From Globomyces pollinis-pini (Eukaryota; Chytridiomycota; Chytridiomycetes; Rhizophydiales; Globomycetaceae), in the NCBI GenBank assembly GCA_025399215.1, contig MU621143.1:16001-80000 (forward strand): a stretch of 64,000 nucleotides of DNA, read 5' to 3'. The position numbers and the translations under genes are program-made. Below, piece after piece: positions 3,538 through 56,743 of this stretch. The notes under the pieces were generated by a model that did not search any database, was not told the origin of the DNA, and worked only from the letters and a program-made list of their open reading frames with translations. Numbering within the stretch: the stretch's first letter is position 1; each line of letters begins with the position of its first letter.

Positions 3538-4429
3538 TTAAGTATTTAAAAGTACATTTTCTTGTAGCAAATCCAATCGTGATTCAAGAGTGTTAGAACA
3601 CAAAATATTCCAATTTGGAGTTCCCAACACGACACCTCCATAACTGTTGTTAATTTCAACCTTATACCTTTCTTTAGGCAAAGGATTAGCCTTGTCAACT
3701 TCAATAGTGCAATCAATACCACTTGCTTGTTTGAAAATTTGGACTGCATCCTTAATTGCACTTTCTGCTAAGTTGTAATCTTGTTCACGGACTTTAACGA
3801 GAACATTTTTTTCCATTAAACGATACATTCCCTAAAAATTATTAATATTCATTCAATAGATCTTCAGATGGTGCAGTTTAGGTTTGATGTTGTGACTCAA
3901 GCCATAATTTAAGACAAATATAGTAGATATAGTACCTGAAGAAGAAGATTCTTCAACAATTCTTGATATTTTCCTGAATCTTTTGTTAGAGAGTTCAATT
4001 GCAATTTTGTCTGCGCGAATAAATCATTCAAAACTTGTTGCCGTTGGGCCAAGACTTGTAGTCTATTTTTGTTGATCAAATGGGATGCAGAGCTGCCGAT
4101 AGATTATTAACTAAGAAATTACCTTAGATTAGTACATTTATGAAATTACATTTTACGTTGAACATCAGCTTGTTTAAGTTTTTTTTGAAAGAAAGCTTCA
4201 ATAGCGACAGTTTCAGCTCTAACTAGCTTTCCCTTTTCGATGTTGAATTCTTCATCGGCCTTTATCTTAGTTTCCCTTGCTTTTTCCAGGGCCTCTTGTT
4301 TGATGAAGGCGACCTAAAGTATCAAGATAAAGTGATTTGCAATACCTAAACAATCATCAGTTTGATGATATTTCTAACCATTTTGTTCATTTCCTGAGCT
4401 ACTTCTGAATCATTCAATCTGCCAGCCAT
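3538..4429 (-). CDS. VMA4: V-type proton ATPase subunit E
   Basis: Peripheral-stalk subunit of the V1 sector, linking catalytic head and membrane sector of the vacuolar/endosomal proton pump. The spliced product is 221 aa, the normal family length. It starts MAGRLNDSEVAQEMNKM, continues through a charged helix (KQADVQRKISASHLINKNRL) and ends in the conserved globular domain (LLLQGMYRLMEKNVLVKVREQ; NSYGGVVLGT). Three introns: 3832-3935 (104 nt), 4093-4149 (57 nt) and 4314-4378 (65 nt). The last two each decompose exactly into two abutting GT...AG mini-introns. It is divergent from COG7, with only 69 bp between the start codons. Confidence 0.93.
4093..4149 (-). other. Tandem abutting mini-introns (27+30 nt) in VMA4
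   Basis: In gene orientation a 27-nt GT...AG unit (4149-4123) is followed with no intervening base by a 30-nt GT...AG unit (4122-4093). Both begin GTAATTTC. Removing the whole 57 nt restores QRKISASHLINKNRL, the expected subunit E sequence. Single-intron removal and two-step removal give the same mRNA, so only RNA intermediates can tell them apart. Confidence 0.6.
4314..4378 (-). other. Tandem abutting mini-introns (33+32 nt) in VMA4
   Basis: In gene orientation 4378-4346 (33 nt) and 4345-4314 (32 nt) are each complete GT...TTTAG introns joined AG|GT. Removing both joins EMNKM to VAFIKQEALEKA, matching subunit E. It is the second such case in the same gene. Confidence 0.6.
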
Positions 4430-4498: not shown

Positions 4499-6892
4499 AT
4501 GACAGAGAAAGAGAATGTAACGAAACCTAGTATAAAAGGTATCAAATCATCAGATGAGAGTCTGCAAAACGAATTAGAATTGTTATTAGATTCAATCATG
4601 AAAGAGGAATCTGTTGAATCCCTGGCTACAAGAAAGAGTAACCTTCTTAACTAATCATAGTCGATGCTATCAATAATTTAACTGTCAATTATGAACTTCT
4701 TAAGTTGGAAAAATCAATTCAACTTCAACATCTAACAACTTCTGCAATTAATAGAATGCCAAATATATTGGCTGATATGAAAAAACTTCAATTAAAAATA
4801 AACGATATTCACTCTCTAGTAGCTTCCACCAAAGTCTCATTAAATGAAAAACATTCCAATGACAATGTTTTTGAATCTTTAGGTTAATTTCTATTAAACT
4901 AATATGTTAGGTATTCATATCTGTAATGATACTTATAATAGTACAATTGGACAGGGTAGCTTCTCGAATGAAAGCAACGAGATCTTGCTTAAAAGATGCT
5001 GATAATTGGTCAACAGTATCCGCTGAAATGGAAGTATTCATATATATTTATTAAAAGAAAGGCACTATTTGTCGCAAAAGATTATACAAAGGTTGCTCAA
5101 AGGTTGGAAGAAGCTGATAAATCATTGTCAATTTTATCCAATGTGAATGATTTGAATGATAGAAAAGAACTTTTACAATCATTATCTGATCAATTTATTA
5201 CGCTGTTGAAATCAGATTTAATGGAGGCAATGTCCACAAACAACCTCACGGATGTAAAGTCTCTTCTTTCTCATTTAAACACCATCCACAAATCAGATGA
5301 GATTACAAACATTTACTTCGATTCCCTTAAATCAACTTTGTCTGAAAAGTGGAAAGTCTCACAATCGGCTAAAGACTTGCTTATAGATCTCAAAAATTAT
5401 CTAACAGACTTATTGACACTTTTCAACAATGAAAAAAATCGCTGTCAAACTATTTTCGGAAAAGATAGTAATTTACAATTTAATCTGGTACTAAAAAGGC
5501 TATTGCAATCATTGGAACCTAACTTGACCAATCTTTTGTCCTTGATAGATAAATCTGGAAATGAAGCTAGTATAGTTATTTTCGTTCAAGTATTATAGTT
5601 ATCCATTAATCGTTAGTTTTATCAAATTGTATTGGCATTTGGGTCACAATTTGAAAAAGAATACCCTGTAGAGCAATCTAATGCTAAATGGAGCACAGAG
5701 TTATTTCAACCATTCATTTATTATCAGGTTTGATTTTCATTAATTAACAGAATTGATTAGAAAAAATATGACGTTTATGAAAGAAAATGTTTAAAATCCA
5801 AATCAAAACTGTTTACATCAGATTCACAGAAATTATTAATGTCTTCCATTAGTACTGCTGAGTTGGCATTGAATCGATTTATACAATTCACATTCTGCTT
5901 GCCAAAAAGTGATATCGCCAATCTACTTGACGAATTTTTTTCTGATGTCATTCACAATTTCAAAAATAGAAATGGTATTATAAAGAGTGACGTAGATTAT
6001 CTTGATCAGACGGAGCTGACTGAATCTGACCTAAAATTATTTCAAAATTGCATTGATGGCTTGAAGCAAGCGGTTAGCTTTCGACAGCAGGTAAATCTTT
6101 TGCTTTAACGCGAAGTTGGAAGAGTTTTGGGCGAAAGTTGATGAAGGTTTGAATAGCCCTCTTGCAAAAGGATCAATAATGGCAAAGTCGCCCCCAGAAA
6201 TATGTCAAACGAGTGTATCTAGTCTCTCTTCCTTGAAAGGGTTTGCTCACAAAGTTGGCGAGAAACATTCTTCTATCCAGCAATCATTTGACTTGGTCTA
6301 TAAGAATCAAGAGCAAGTACTACATTCAATATTGGTACCAGTTACCTCCATTTTAGATAAATTTACATCAATGATTGAATGGAGTTCAACAAATGGAGAG
6401 TCACAAAACGTCCCACAATTCAGCCTTTCTCCCCTACCATACATCACTTGCATTGGAGAATATCTTTTGACATTGCCTCAATATTTTGACTCTTATTCAC
6501 AAGAAGAGTTTCTGAAAGTGTTTGTAAACGAGTTGCCATTGCTTACAAAGGATGATAAGGAACAGTCTAACGATGATGACTCGTCTTTAGATTCAGAAGA
6601 AGTCGAAGACAGTATCAACATTTGGATTACATCAGCTGTACGAATCACTGAAGACTATTATGTCAAGCAAATCCTCAAGCTGACCACTATGACTGAACAA
6701 GGACGTATGCAACTTATTGCTGATATAACATATTTAAAAAATGTTATGGCAGCAATCGAAATTGATCCTACTGAGCCATTTTCATTTGTTCTAACTGGGT
6801 TAGAATTAACCATTGAAGAGTTGACAGAATTTATGGAGAAACATGATCACACTGTTTTGAAGACTATCATGTCATTGCGAGTGAAGAAATAA
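4499..6892 (+). CDS. COG7: Conserved oligomeric Golgi complex subunit 7
   Basis: Subunit of the COG tethering complex for retrograde intra-Golgi traffic. The spliced product is 732 aa, close to the usual length. Family landmarks: an N-terminal helical region (LQHLTTSAINRMPNILADMK), then VQLDRVASRMKATRSCLKDADNWST, the signature segment of COG7, and a long helical C-terminal half. Introns: 4638-4660 (23 nt), 4883-4941 (28+31 nt abutting), 5034-5061 (28), 5590-5616 (27), 5728-5760 (33) and 6091-6115 (25). The 5590 boundary is the least certain. It shares a short divergent promoter with VMA4. Confidence 0.87.
4883..4941 (+). other. Tandem abutting mini-introns (28+31 nt) in COG7
   Basis: 4883-4910 (28 nt) and 4911-4941 (31 nt) are complete GT...AG introns joined directly. 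Removing both gives FESLVQLDRVASRM in frame, exactly the COG7 signature region. Confidence 0.6.
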
Positions 6893-8429: not shown

Positions 8430-9851
8430 ATGAAGAAAACGAAATCGTTATGGTATTTGATACCAATCTCGATAATCACGACGATGATGGTCATTCATTT
8501 AACATCCATTCAGATATTTAATTCACAACCATTCATACCCAAATCAGAGATCTTTCCTATCGTCATTCCAACCTATCAAGAACATTTTCATCTCAACATT
8601 CAATTTTTAGAATCCTTTGTAAAGAATGTCGATGATTTTTCTAATATTCTCATTCTATTTATAGTTTCGAATCGAAATGAAGTGAAATCATTATTGAAAC
8701 TGATTTATACTAATCCAGTATTGATTGAAGCATTTCAGATACATGAAGGTGGATTATATATTGAATCCTTATTTGACGTGATATCCAAAGTGGATGGAAT
8801 AGATTTACGAAATGAACCATTAATTTTTAATGATATTCATATACAAGAAGATAATCTATTAGAGTTGGTTCAAAAATACAAGTATCAATCCATCAAAAAA
8901 TTATATGGTATCAGGTATTTGGATACCATTATACCACATTATCAATACGCATTGATGGCAGATTCTGAATTCAAATGTATCAAGCCAAATACTTTATTTC
9001 ATAATACCGTACAAGATTATTTCTACAATTCAAAAATCAAATTATTTTATCAAGATTTTCGTCATGGTCAAATGAATCTCATTAAACAATTGGTACAAGA
9101 AATAATGGATTTCATTCATGTAAATGTACATGTATTACCAAGTGATACTACTTATATGTTACAAGATCAATCTTGGTTTGTACAACGTGATATTTATCAT
9201 GGATTTTGGAATTATCTTGAAGGTATCAATCAAACTTCTATATTACGTCGTATCTATGATAATCCTGGAAATGCTTTGTTTGGTGATTTAGGTATTCAAT
9301 ATCATTTCATATATAGCGTATCGTTATTATATTTATACAAATGATTTCCCTGGCAAGGATAGATATGAGTTTGTGGATGTAATACAACAATTTAAAACCC
9401 AAAAGGGTAATATGGTATCTTTTAATGTAAGGAGTATCTCCAGCAGCATACAACTTGATTTTAAAGGATCAATTGAAAAATGGTAAATATGGTGCTTTTG
9501 AAGAAATCTCTTGGTTCCCGAAATCATTAACCTCCCATCTTGTTGATTTCTTGAATACAAACAAAATTGCCTTTTTTCGTAATGAAGGAAATGAAGAATG
9601 TTTTCTTTATAAATTATCAAAATCAGTTGAAACGATGCGATATCAAGCATGTAGTGATGCCTATTTCCCCATTTCTGATGGGTATTGTAAAGCGCTTGAA
9701 GAAACTGAATTGCAAGCTGAACGTGACAGTCTTGCTGATCTTCATCAAGAAGAAAAGAGATTGCAAACTGCTCTGTAGAATTTATGGTAACAAGTCATGG
9801 TTCACACAGTTTATGGATTACTATATCATGAACTCTTTTACTGTTTCATAG
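8430..9851 (+). CDS. Glycosyltransferase-like type II membrane protein, unknown family
   Basis: An N-terminal signal-anchor (residues about 8-24, WYLIPISIITTMMVIHL) precedes a luminal domain opening with IFPIVIPTYQEHF, a start typical of nucleotide-diphospho-sugar transferase folds. LDTIIPHYQYALMADSEF carries a possible D-x-E metal-site motif. Apparent frameshifts are explained by 25-nt introns at 9292-9316 and 9407-9431, which restore NDFPGKDRYEFV and KGVSPAAYNLILKDQLKNG. Later segments include KYGAFEEISWFPKS, RNEGNEECFLY and CRIYGNKSWFTQ. One more intron near 9724-9762 is needed to reach the stop, but its exact boundaries are unresolved. Probably a Golgi enzyme; substrate unknown. Confidence 0.6.
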
Positions 9852-32011: not shown

Positions 32012-33496
32012 ATGGCTGCAAAACAAGGAGAGGGTTTAACAACCTACTACAAAAATAAGATCGAGGTAAAAAATATTTGATGATTGATCTTAGGTATGGA
32101 TGATATGATTAATTCAATCCTAGGTAATGTACAGATGTATTGATTTTTAGCAATTAGAGGTCAAGGTATTCATCTATTCATTAATTTATTTAGGTATCAA
32201 AATCTCTTAAAACTAATTAAAAGTGCAACTCTATGACCTTGAACCTTCGACGACTGGAAGCTCAACGAAATCAGCTCAATGCAAAAGTTAGACTTTTGAG
32301 AGAAGAATTGCAACTATTACAGGAACCAGGAAGTTATGTTGGAGAAGTTGTAAAACTCATGGGCAAAAAGAAAGTATTGGTTAAAGTCAATACTGAAGGA
32401 AAATATGTGGTTGATATTCACCCTTCTATTGATATTGCTTTATTGACTCCAACCGTTAGAATTGCTTTACGACACGATTCTTATCAACTACATAAAGTTT
32501 TACCGAATAAGATTGATCCATTGGTGTCTTTGATGATGGTTGAAAAAGTACCTGATTCTACTTATGATATGATTGGTGGATTAGAAAATCAGATCAAAGA
32601 AATCAAAGAAGTCATTGAATTACCTGTTAAACATCCGGAGTTGTTTGATTCCTTGGGAATTGCGCAACCAAAAGGTTAGAATTTGTTTTACTCATTGTTG
32701 AAGGTGTTTTATTGTATGGACCACCAGGTACAGGAAAGACCTTACTTGCTCGGTTAGTTATTTTTTCTTATGTTATCTTTAGTGCTGTTGCCCATCATAC
32801 AGACTGTAGATTTATTCGTGTATCTGGATCTGAACTTGTCCAAAAATACATTGGTGAAGGTTCAAGAATGGTTAGAGAACTATTCGTAATGGCTCGTGAA
32901 CATGCACCTTCTATTATCTTTATGGATGAAATTGATTCTATCGGTTCCAGTCGAGGTATTGACCCATGTACCATTAATGTAAGGTGATGGTGGAGGTGGT
33001 AGTGGTGGTGATAGTGAAGTACAACGTACCATGTTGGAATTGTTGAATCAATTGGATGGATTCGAAGCCACACAAAGTATTAAAGTAATTATGGCAACAA
33101 ATCGTATCGATATTCTTGACGCTGCTCTTTTAAGACCTGGTATATCATCGATGACCATTAATACCATAGGTCGTATTGATCGTAAAATTGAATTCCCACC
33201 TCCAAATGAAGCAGCCCGTGCTGATATTTTAAAGATCCACTCTAGAAAGATGAATCTTACTCGTGGTATAGATTTGGTCAAGATAGCCGAAAAAATGACT
33301 GGAGCAAGTGGTGCTGAAGTCAAAGGTGTGTGTACTGAAGCAGGTATGTATGCTTTGCGTGAACGTCGTGTTCATGTCACCCAAGAGGATTTTGAAATGG
33401 CTGTATCCAAGGTATCTGTCTTTTTTAAACTTATACTGTTAGGTTTTGAAAAAAGATTCCGAGCAGAATATGTCTATCAAAAAATTATTCAAATAA
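32012..33496 (+). CDS. RPT6: 26S proteasome regulatory AAA-ATPase Rpt6 (PSMC5)
   Basis: One of six base ATPases that unfold proteasome substrates. The spliced product is 397 aa. It starts [18 protein letters not shown], then the coiled-coil [22 protein letters not shown] domain, Walker [10 protein letters not shown], Walker [36 protein letters not shown] and a C-terminus MSIKKLFK close to the usual HbYX-less Rpt6 tail. The first codons are fused to the rest by 143 nt of intron split by a 15-nt exon (32151-32165): three abutting introns before it and two after. Five further introns of 28-31 nt. Confidence 0.96.
32066..32150 (+). other. Triple tandem mini-intron array (28+30+27 nt) in RPT6
   Basis: 32066-32093, 32094-32123 and 32124-32150 are each complete GT...TAG introns, placed AG|GT...AG|GT with no exon between. 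The array separates KNKIE from the 15-nt exon coding QLEVK. Confidence 0.65.
32166..32223 (+). other. Double tandem mini-intron array (28+30 nt) in RPT6
   Basis: 32166-32193 and 32194-32223 are complete GT...AG introns joined directly. Removing both joins QLEVK to [16 protein letters not shown], in frame and matching the Rpt6 coiled-coil. Confidence 0.65.
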
Positions 33497-42572: not shown

Positions 42573-43728
42573 ATGGGAAGATTAGATGGTAAAGTTGCTT
42601 TAGTTACTGGTGCTGCTTCAGGTATTGAACCATCCAAAAACTGAATTTTTTTTATATAGGTAATTAGATTAGTTGAATTTGATGATATGATAGGAATTGG
42701 TTTTGAAACTGCTGTTTTATTTGCAAAAGTTAGTTTTAAATTGAATCTTATATTTAAAGGAAGGTGCAAAAGTTGTTTGTGCAGATATCAATGAAAATGC
42801 TGGTAATTTAGCTTTACAAAAATTATTGGGTTTATTGGATCCTTCACTTAAATCTACCAATCCTGCAGTTTTTGTCAAGGTTGATGTATCAAAAGAATCG
42901 GATCTTGAAAATGCTGTCAAAGTTGCTGAATCCACTTTTGGTATTTCATTTTATTAAATAATATCTTAGGGTATTTCATTCTAAAGGTTGTTGATTGATT
43001 AGTAAATTGAATATTATCTTCAATAATGCTGGAATTATGCATCCTGATGATGATAATGCAACCAGTACTACCGAAAAAGTAATTTGTTTTGATGGTTTAA
43101 TATGAAAGGTTTGGGATTTGACCATGAACATCAATGTAAAGGGTGTTTGGTATGGATGTCGACATGGTATTCCTGCTCTTCGTCGTGCCGGTGGTGGTAG
43201 TATCATTAACAGTATGTTGATTTTTTTATTAACTGTTTAACTTTAGCTGCTTCATTTGTAATTGTTTCAATTTCATAATTATAGGTTGCAATCATGGGTG
43301 CTGCTACTCCTCAATTGGCTTGTATGCAAATTTGATTATTTAATGTTCAGATACCGCTTCTAAAGGTGCTGTTCTTGCCATGACTCGTGAATTGGCTACC
43401 ATTCATGCTAGAGAAAACATTAGAGTGAATGCTCTTTGTCCAGGTCCAATTCGCACACGTATACTAGTTCAGTTTTAATGAATTAGCATTATTAATGGAC
43501 TTTTTGAACACTGAAGAAAAGAAAAATCGTCGATTAGTTCATGTACCTATGGGTAGATTTGGTGAAGCTATTGAACAAGCATATGCTGCTTTGTTCCTTG
43601 CCTCTGATGAATCTACCTTTATTACTGGTACTGATTTCGCAGTCGATGGTGGTTTGACTGGTGCTTATGTCACCCCTGAAGGCCCTACTACCACTCACAG
43701 TGTTCACAAGAACTTTTCTGGTGTCTAA
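42573..43728 (+). CDS. Short-chain dehydrogenase/reductase
   Basis: Classical SDR, spliced 280 aa. NAD(P)-binding TGAASGIGFETAVLFAK, VVCADINENAG (Asp after beta-2 suggests NAD), NNAGIMHPDD, INVKGVWYGCRHG, and catalytic Tyr/Lys in LAYTASKGAV. Then RVNALCPGPIRTPLL and the typical end FITGTDFAVDGGLTG. Nine or more introns. Two sites have tandem introns: 42622-42693 (38+34 nt abutting) and 42941-43002 (29 nt, one G, 32 nt). Substrate unknown. Confidence 0.9.
42622..42693 (+). other. Tandem abutting mini-introns (38+34 nt) in SDR
   Basis: 42622-42659 and 42660-42693 are complete GT...AG introns joined AG|GT inside the glycine-rich motif. Removing both restores TGAASGIGF. Confidence 0.62.
42941..43002 (+). 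other. Two mini-introns separated by a 1-nt exon (G at 42970)
   Basis: 42941-42969 (29 nt) and 42971-43002 (32 nt) both start GTATTTCATT and end TTAG. Between them lies one G. Upstream exon ends TTT G, downstream starts T AAA TTG AAT. Only keeping that G gives TTT GGT AAA TTG (FGKLNIIFNNAG). Removing the whole block as one intron breaks the frame. Confidence 0.7.
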
Positions 43729-55154: not shown

Positions 55155-56743
55155 TTAAAACTGAAGGGATTGGACTTCCGCTTCTGTACTATAAATTTTT
55201 GACTGGGGTAAATAATGAAGCTTATAATTACCTTCAAATTCTGCAGTTGTGAGGATATTTTACTCGCTCGTTCACCAGTTAATCTCGCTATACCAGTTAG
55301 AATCGCTAATTACCAAGATTTAACAAAACCAATTCTTTATCTTCCAAAGAACCATATTTGAGTATATTTTTTTCTAAAACTCTCAGTTGCTGTCTTAATG
55401 AGACTATATCACTCGTAAACCCTTCAATTTCATAATCTCTTCGTCGCTTCAAAGCATTGTAACTACGGTGGTTATACATGATTTCAATACCTTGCATTAA
55501 CTTGATCAAAACGTGTTTTTAAATATTCAATCTTTTTAGCAGATACTGCAGACTTTTCTACCATTTCTGTCTTCAGCTTTTTGATGTTTTCTTCCAGTTT
55601 TCTATTTTGTATTTTTAGATCATGAACAATGGTTTCATGTTTCTTTGATATTCGACTTTCAATTGACTTATTTTGTTTAGATATCTTTCTTTAATGATAC
55701 CTTTTCAGCGCTTTCGTTTCTTTCTTGTTCTACAGCTAGCTGTGAGTGTAAGTTTTTAATTTGTTCAATTAAATCAGCCTTTTCTTCTATTAACGACCTT
55801 TCATGAGCATGCGATATCTTTTTTGTTCTTAGCAACTCTAAAGATTAGATCCAACGAATCAATACCTCTTGTATTCTCTCTGCATAAGGTTCTCATTTTA
55901 GCTAACGTGTCCATTAGTCCTTTAATTTTGTTTTCATTATAATCTGATCGAGCACGTTCCTCTTCTAACTTTAAGCGTCTTTCTTTCATTATGGCGTCCA
56001 TTGTGTTGTCAAAATTTAATTTCTGATGTTTATAGGATATCAGTAGTACCTGTTCTTGTACTTGAGCTTGCAGCGATGATACTGTCAACTTTAAACCTTG
56101 CACTTCATCTTCAAGGATTATCAAATCTTGTTCCTCGTTCTTCCTTTGGGATGCCTCTTCAACTTGGAGGCTAGATCTTGCAATCTTTACCAATCGTTTA
56201 TCCAGTCTATCCCGAAAGTACGTCACCTCTTCCTCTGGTGCTCCGGAGAGAGACAGCAGAAATCTGAATCAGAACAATAAAAACATACCTATTCTATTAA
56301 TGGCACTATCTTACTTTATTTTTTTCCGATCTTTTAATTCTTGAACTAATTGTCAAATTTGAGAACATTTTACTCTTTCAGGTTAGACCAAACAATATCT
56401 TACTTTTAAGGCATCATTTTCCGCAACAATTTTCAACGTGCTGTAGTTGTTAACCAAAAATTGATTACTGTTTCCTTTCATCAAACAAAGTTGTTTGAAA
56501 ATCACCTAATGCTTGTTGTAATTCCCTAACCTCTTTTGATCTTTTATAAACCTCCCAAGACAATTTATGATGCTCTTGATGTGATATTTTCAACTCATTG
56601 ATTCGATCTAAAGCATTTTGATAATCGATTTCAGCATTTTCTACAAATCATTAAGATTTCATCAAACCCAATTTTTGTTTATAAAACTCCAACAATTCTT
56701 TTGAAATTGGCAAGTCTGATAAATCCTTTTCCAATGTCACCAT
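55155..56743 (-). CDS. CCDC77: CCDC77-like centrosome/basal-body coiled-coil protein
   Basis: Starts MVTLEKDLSDLPISKELLEF, as CCDC77 (PSKELLEYY...). Long coiled-coil in many small exons: RSKEVRELQQALGDFQTTLF, LVKIARSSLQVEEASQRK, SYNALKRRRDYEIEGFTSDI and VSLRQQLRVLEKNILKYG, the last two lining up with the human YEALERRR..EVEGFK..I..LRQKL..LE segment. C-terminus ERASKISSQLQNLKSKIY as in the family. Internal exon borders are not all resolved. Linked to centrioles and basal bodies. Divergent from the DSC3-like gene, 60 bp apart. Confidence 0.72.

Follow-up and report, generated by a model that had tools for sequence, protein, structure and literature searches.

The short-chain dehydrogenase (SDR) gene of the chytrid Globomyces pollinis-pini (Chytridiomycota, Rhizophydiales, Globomycetaceae) described here raises the question whether a single nucleotide can form an exon of its own, flanked by two introns of about 30 nt, and, if it does, how these introns are removed. 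The gene lies in a stretch of 64,000 nucleotides, referred to below as the window. A single G between introns of 29 and 32 nt had been proposed in the first-pass annotation of this DNA, and both the coordinates and the lengths are exact, as is the observation that the two introns start alike, their common start being GTATTTCATT (Table 1). We consider it probable, at about 0.83, that the SDR gene contains a one-base exon, that the introns around it are likely removed in succession, and that the site is the extreme case of a wider habit of abutting mini-introns in this genome.

Table 1. Positions in the window of the SDR and CCDC77-like genes, the single-nucleotide exons and the abutting mini-introns.
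Feature	Position	Strand	Remarks
SDR (short-chain dehydrogenase) gene	42573-43728	+	removal of ten GT-AG introns of 27-38 nt gives an intact protein of 280 aa
SDR abutting doublet, 38 + 34 nt, or one 72-nt intron	42622-42659, 42660-42693	+	homology
SDR intron 1 of the pair	42941-42969	+	29 nt, GTATTTCATT...CTTAG
Putative one-nt exon G	42970	+	base of the Gly89 codon; AG before, GT after
SDR intron 2 of the pair	42971-43002	+	32 nt, GTATTTCATT...GATTAG; YTRAY branch point present
CCDC77-like gene	55155-56743	-	
Probable one-nt exon A, CCDC77-like	56374	-	introns 56375-56403 (29 nt) and 56346-56373 (28 nt)
Abutting doublet, CCDC77-like, 26 + 25 nt	56264-56314	-	gene finder; gapless against P0121
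Rpt6 (26S proteasome subunit 8) abutting triplet, 28 + 30 + 27 nt	32066-32150	+	
Rpt6 abutting doublet, 28 + 30 nt	32166-32223	+	
Predicted abutting doublet, 28 + 31 nt	4883-4941	+	gene 4499-6892; finder only
Predicted abutting doublet, 33 + 32 nt	4314-4378	-	low-scoring gene model 3909-4429
Predicted abutting doublet, 27 + 30 nt	4093-4149	-	low-scoring gene model 3909-4429

The reading frame gives the most direct information on the fate of the G. Removal of the 62 nt as one intron breaks the frame, as the annotation had argued, and the translation ends in a stop (ESTFVN*); leaving either intron 1 or intron 2 unspliced also leads to stops. Retention of the G alone translates to ESTFGKLNIIFNNAG, which is the sequence expected of an SDR, and short-chain dehydrogenase domains were found in the complete product. 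All splicing patterns with up to three introns were then enumerated between fixed exon anchors, with sites within ~42937-43009. For GT-AG introns of at least 16 nt there are 13 such patterns, only two of them open in frame, and both retain the G (the second differs only by dividing intron 2 into 16+16). With a minimum of 10 nt the number rises to 18, of which three are open, again all with the G retained, while GC donors yield no extra pattern and AT-AC introns leave the unspliced pattern only, which is closed. The annotation had itself named a different frame-keeping splice pattern as the objection to be feared; every open pattern found by this enumeration retains the G.

Conservation of the protein at this position points the same way. 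The G completes Gly89, located within FGKLNIIFNNAG, and this glycine is found in 120/120 homologues (the best 120 of 8000 scored), none of which has a gap in residues 85-99. A single one of these 120 listed homologues, P0026 from Rhizophlyctis rosea, carries a five-residue insertion adjoining Gly89, which fits a retained phase-1 intron and hints that the ancestral SDR intron may have been of phase 1. The best match listed is from Boothiomyces sp. JEL0838 (86%), and no SDR of Globomyces appears in the 120 best listed matches, for which only proteins of 154-490 aa were candidates. The deposited SDR orthologue P0001 (Boothiomyces sp. JEL0838) is a model of 486 aa; its additional C-terminal portion resembles, by eye, the 24-kDa subunit of NADH dehydrogenase, probably through a fusion in annotation. 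Another small exon of the same gene, the 11-nt CTGCTTCATTT at 43247-43257 (+) of the window, is flanked by introns of 35 and 27 nt.

Both introns of the SDR pair are recovered by a self-trained gene finder that takes no homology into account. When exons of 1-2 nt are forbidden, its model of the gene shrinks and the score drops from 107.4 to 30.9 nats. An AG-N-GT that divides the sequence into two units of 23-38 nt occurs in 274/5000 shuffles of the SDR 62-mer and in none of the 18 other sampled intervening sequences that measure 46-77 nt, and the donor it provides here is a strong one (72nd percentile). A YTRAY branch point was looked for in intron 1, at 6-14 nt from its end, and none was found. 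The SDR locus matches only itself in a search of the whole genome. As far as DNA can tell, the G appears to have the attributes of a single-nucleotide exon, namely canonical GT-AG introns on both sides and a base needed for the frame as well as for the conserved protein, and we infer that it is present in the mature SDR mRNA. Separate splicing of the two units, also claimed by the annotation, is borne out by the frame, the pattern enumeration, the gene-finder score and the homologues.

The sample given to the gene finder consisted of the window together with C1:1-150000 and C2:1-100000 (314 kb), in which 155 genes with 795 introns were predicted. The 743 single introns (≤40 nt) have a median length of 28 nt, with the central 95% at 24-34 nt, so that both units of the SDR pair are of ordinary length. 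Introns that are stop-free and a multiple of three in length escape the finder, two of which were recognized by eye, one of 27 nt in the CCDC77-like gene and one of 24 nt in a kinesin gene (G000:C1:107493-110387). Two exons of 5 nt, ATGAG and TGCAG, are predicted in the genes at G000:C1 34490-36612 (-) and 24554-25444 (+), respectively. There are no Rfam matches and no tRNA in the window. U2 snRNA was found in the genome and U1 snRNA was not, with the control genomes giving neither.

Apart from the SDR exon, the finder called two other one-base exons, at which forbidding exons of 1-2 nt costs just 0.85 and 2.9 nats, so that independent evidence is needed for both. This evidence eliminates one of them, which makes one of the three calls false: the G at 9406 is not a one-base exon, because what would be its first intron is coding sequence in the deposited P0174 and in the paralogue P0175, and the protein of 8484-9778 and P0174 are identical at 405/405 aligned residues. 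The product of 8484-9778 (+) has ~430 aa, and the search for it gave these two proteins only, both of Globomyces.

The other call, an A in the CCDC77-like gene, is probably a one-base exon, as suggested by spacing in homologous proteins. Thirteen splicing patterns exist at this site, three of them open. Among these, the pattern that includes the one-base exon is alone in separating ALK from QELKDR by a single residue, which is the spacing of seven CCDC77 homologues. Among 53 homologues, exactly one residue is found in 44, four are gapped and five have extra residues at the exact site (P0136, P0139, P0159, P0162, and P0163). Each of the five extra stretches is compatible with translation of a retained phase-1 intron, that is, with a first codon N-GT, a last codon G-NN and a preceding codon ending in A, criteria that 4, 5 and 12 of the 20 residues, respectively, would allow by chance. 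On this reading, the relatives seem to have a single intron directly 3' of the base that stands alone in Globomyces, where the additional unit is located one base further upstream. In the two Boothiomyces sequences the stretch reads as 21 nt and AGT is the only possible first codon, which makes A the base before their intron. Deposited CCDC77 proteins of other chytrids thus appear to include a translated unspliced intron (of 21 nt in the Boothiomyces entries).

Nine residues apart, the CCDC77-like protein agrees with the deposited P0121 of Globomyces pollinis-pini at 416/417 aligned residues; the nine are probably the missed stop-free intron. The lone mismatch is at the one-base-exon site, with Val deposited and Ile resulting from the A, and for annotators this is the one place where the deposited CCDC77 protein departs from the reading of the genome. 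A 57-nt intron bordered by TA would give the deposited Val, but Ile and Val are both common among the 49 residues of this column (I 29, V 18, A 1, M 1, and gap 4 in the 53 homologues). Invariance of Ile, as seen in six relatives, did not hold in this larger set. A genome search with the CCDC77 locus returned only the locus itself.

One-base exons are not a bulk feature of this genome. A series of whole-genome patterns, with GTAANT donors only and AG to GT spacings of 0, 1, 2, and 3 nt, gave 67, 13, 19, and 22 matches, respectively, and the backward-pattern controls gave 46, 33, 22, and 27. The excess at 0 nt is thus only 1.5-fold over its own backward control and is clearer against the other spacings, and at 1 nt there is no excess at all (13 vs 19 and 22, with 33 backward), from which it follows that one-base exons are rare. 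The finder modelled eight of the 13 one-nt matches and called a one-base exon in none (first intron only in five, a weak intronless gene in one and no gene in two), so it does not make such exons from the motif; two more matches fall in the sample, inside genes predicted on the other strand.

Introns often abut without any base in between in the gene models. The finder predicted 22 zero-nt exons, forming 14 strings in 12 genes with total lengths of 51-138 nt; nine strings consist of two units, three of three, one of four, and one of five. The string of five lies in a CLK/LAMMER kinase (L004, G000:C1:20692-20829 (-)) between FLHDL and GLIHTDLKPEN, and is made of complete introns of 25, 27, 29, 28, and 29 nt placed end to end. 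Residue-level checks were made for six of the 14 strings, including the CCDC77 doublet, and for a further doublet in the SDR gene. Alignments to solved chains are gapless across both Rpt6 strings (three and two units) and across those in the CLK kinase (five), a KIF19-like kinesin (two) and a CDKL kinase (two), while for a Gpi1-like protein with a three-unit string no solved structure matched. At the SDR doublet, 42622-42693, the finder picked a 51-nt intron, contradicted by homology, as an insertion is present in 0/120 listed homologues, four of which are gapped there. Neither this doublet nor the strings in other genes had been mentioned in the annotation.

Because a narrow length model could divide long introns arbitrarily, the finder was rerun with a broad one and with exons below 3 nt disallowed, and the resulting intervening sequences were tiled with units of 23-38 nt joined AG/GT. 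Twelve of the 38 intervening sequences of at least 46 nt tile exactly, compared with a mean of 1.12 in 1000 dinucleotide shuffles (SD 0.98, max 5), and between 55 and 65 nt all eight do (8/8). Among the 11 other permutations of AGGT, GGTA tiles 10/38 and TAGG 8/38, probably because these overlap AGGT shifted by one, and the rest tile 0 or 1. At the 19 internal junctions, donors (p=0.89) and acceptors (p=0.56) are similar to those found in single introns and score above 1823 other AGGTs (p=6e-8 and p=7e-6, respectively). A YTRAY branch point accompanies 14/19 internal junctions, 437/743 single introns and 246/1823 AGGTs. Of four tests on exon flanks that compared strings with single introns, one alone reached p<0.05: the exon after the string starts with GT in 5/14 cases, vs 83/743 after single introns (p=0.016).

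Several other explanations have to be weighed against these results. An error in the assembly, with a G missing beside an exon and the 62 nt forming in reality one intron, could imitate a one-base exon in the SDR gene, since one extra G at either side would restore the frame and the locus has no second genomic copy for comparison. Such an error, which we regard as quite improbable, leaves unexplained that an AG-N-GT with a strong donor happens to lie at the right spacing, that other intervening sequences of ~60 nt in this genome tile into units, and that the same arrangement recurs in the CCDC77-like gene. A single 61-nt SDR intron with a non-canonical border (starting with TA or ending with TA) would give the same protein; the codon is GGT either way, so the protein is no argument against it, and in the CCDC77-like gene the deposited Val is what a border of this kind would produce. 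We give this explanation very little credence, as it invokes a rare class of border and about twice the usual length where two canonical introns of usual length fit, and as the two Boothiomyces CCDC77 homologues imply, before their intron, the same A that forms the one-base exon.

A more serious competitor, although in our judgment an unlikely one, is that each zero-nt string is one longer intron removed in a single reaction, with its internal AG/GT sites being incidental or relics. The product is identical in both cases, and the frame is therefore uninformative on the zero-nt strings; furthermore, 26 of the 38 sequences of at least 46 nt do not tile, so that longer single introns are spliced in this fungus if the models are right. 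Against it stand the tiling at about 10 times the shuffled expectation and the internal sites, which look no less well preserved than the sites of single introns, and at both one-base exons single-step removal breaks the frame. In our best reading, the strings consist of complete introns that are probably taken out one after another.

On the origin of the pair, the annotation had suggested tandem duplication of an intron, and of this at most a donor segment stands. The first 10 nt are common to both SDR introns, as in only 84/275,653 pairs of single introns, whereas the identity beyond them, 0.45, is below the mean of 0.53 for random pairs, and over 24 adjacent pairs there is no clear surplus of similarity compared with random ones (p=0.46 for the prefix, 0.70 for the suffix, 0.06 for identity, and 0.03 for the longest common substring). 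Duplication of the whole intron is therefore improbable. Donor similarity amounts to 10/10 positions in the SDR pair (0.03% of single-intron pairs) and 8/10 in the CCDC77 pair (3.4%), while 1/22 of the zero-nt neighbours reaches 8/10. The similar donors in both one-base-exon pairs are a post-hoc hint at donor duplication or at gain of an intron beside an old one, and gain of the second intron one base from the old one and formation of a new donor by a short duplication both fit. Intron 1, the only one of the pair searched, occurs once in the genome at up to three mismatches, and the best identity among the sampled introns is 0.89; neither intron 1 nor the sampled introns show the near-identical copies at many sites that characterize introners.

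The mechanism that we propose starts from two complete GT-AG introns around a G that the mature mRNA would retain. The fungus presumably recognizes introns by intron definition, as units of ~24-34 nt. One base cannot part two assembled splicing complexes, so the two SDR introns would most likely be removed in turn, and this stepwise removal is the most plausible route for the pair; each excision would leave the splice sites of its neighbour intact. The zero-nt strings of two to five units are probably also removed in succession, where the order of removal and the use of every internal site, like intron definition itself, are what the proposal supposes. As a tentative extension, routine stepwise removal of end-to-end mini-introns may reflect a spliceosome tuned to units of ~29 nt, for which many longer intervening sequences would be tolerated only as strings, with new introns arising at or beside old junctions and one-base exons resulting where the new intron misses the junction by one base, a course of events suggested by the relatives' CCDC77 sequences. 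If true, this would amount to a miniature form of recursive splicing that serves compact genes rather than giant introns. Extrapolated to the genome, the 22 zero-nt junctions of the 314-kb sample would correspond to perhaps more than a thousand. We weigh these strings of complete introns as more important than an additional one-base exon: those that abut up to five in a row would be a compact natural test of the order of removal by the spliceosome, and they bear on a possible measurement of length in intron definition and on the possible birth of new introns at existing junctions.

Exons of 1-15 nt are collected in a plant microexon database, and one-base exons are described in two nuclear genes, APC11 and CYP621A, to which the present analysis adds one, probably two, from another phylum and with introns of ~30 nt around the exon. 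In Arabidopsis APC11, a constitutive one-base exon within a 422-nt intervening sequence was proven by cDNA and mutagenesis, and Guo and Liu argued for intron definition and successive removal (PMC4674806). As in the SDR gene, one base acts as an exon and is needed for the frame, but both SDR introns have ~30 nt, abutting introns are numerous in this genome, and the exon is deduced. CYP621A of Fusarium has a one-nt exon, which in F. graminearum lies within an intervening sequence of 139 nt; it is described in 20 orthologues and with transcript reads and termed there the second one-base exon and the first in fungi (PMC12940212). It shares with the SDR gene the fungal nuclear setting, the AG/G/GT core and the restoration of a conserved Gly codon, whereas the SDR case belongs to Chytridiomycota, has a 62-nt sequence and is known from DNA.

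Searches of the open-access literature for abutting, tandem or zero-nt introns led to ratchet points, dual-specific sites and stwintrons, and to no strings of the kind seen here. Stwintrons are complex intervening sequences of fungi that are excised by consecutive reactions, with donor duplication proposed as their origin in Lipomyces (PMC7138796); in the strict sense, an internal intron splits a splice element of the external one, whereas AG/G/GT leaves both introns whole. Human dual-specific AGGT sites, acceptor and donor in one, are reported to be weak as a tendency and under-represented among annotated sites (PMC10809524), in contrast to the internal sites of the chytrid, which score like those of ordinary introns. 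A further parallel to the zero-nt strings is with the ratchet points of Drosophila, where AG/GT is likewise juxtaposed in an apparent zero-nt exon. The Drosophila sites are described mainly from long introns and need a cryptic RS-exon (PMC8605326), whereas the chytrid strings span just 51-138 nt and are built of units of ~25-34 nt, up to five in a row.
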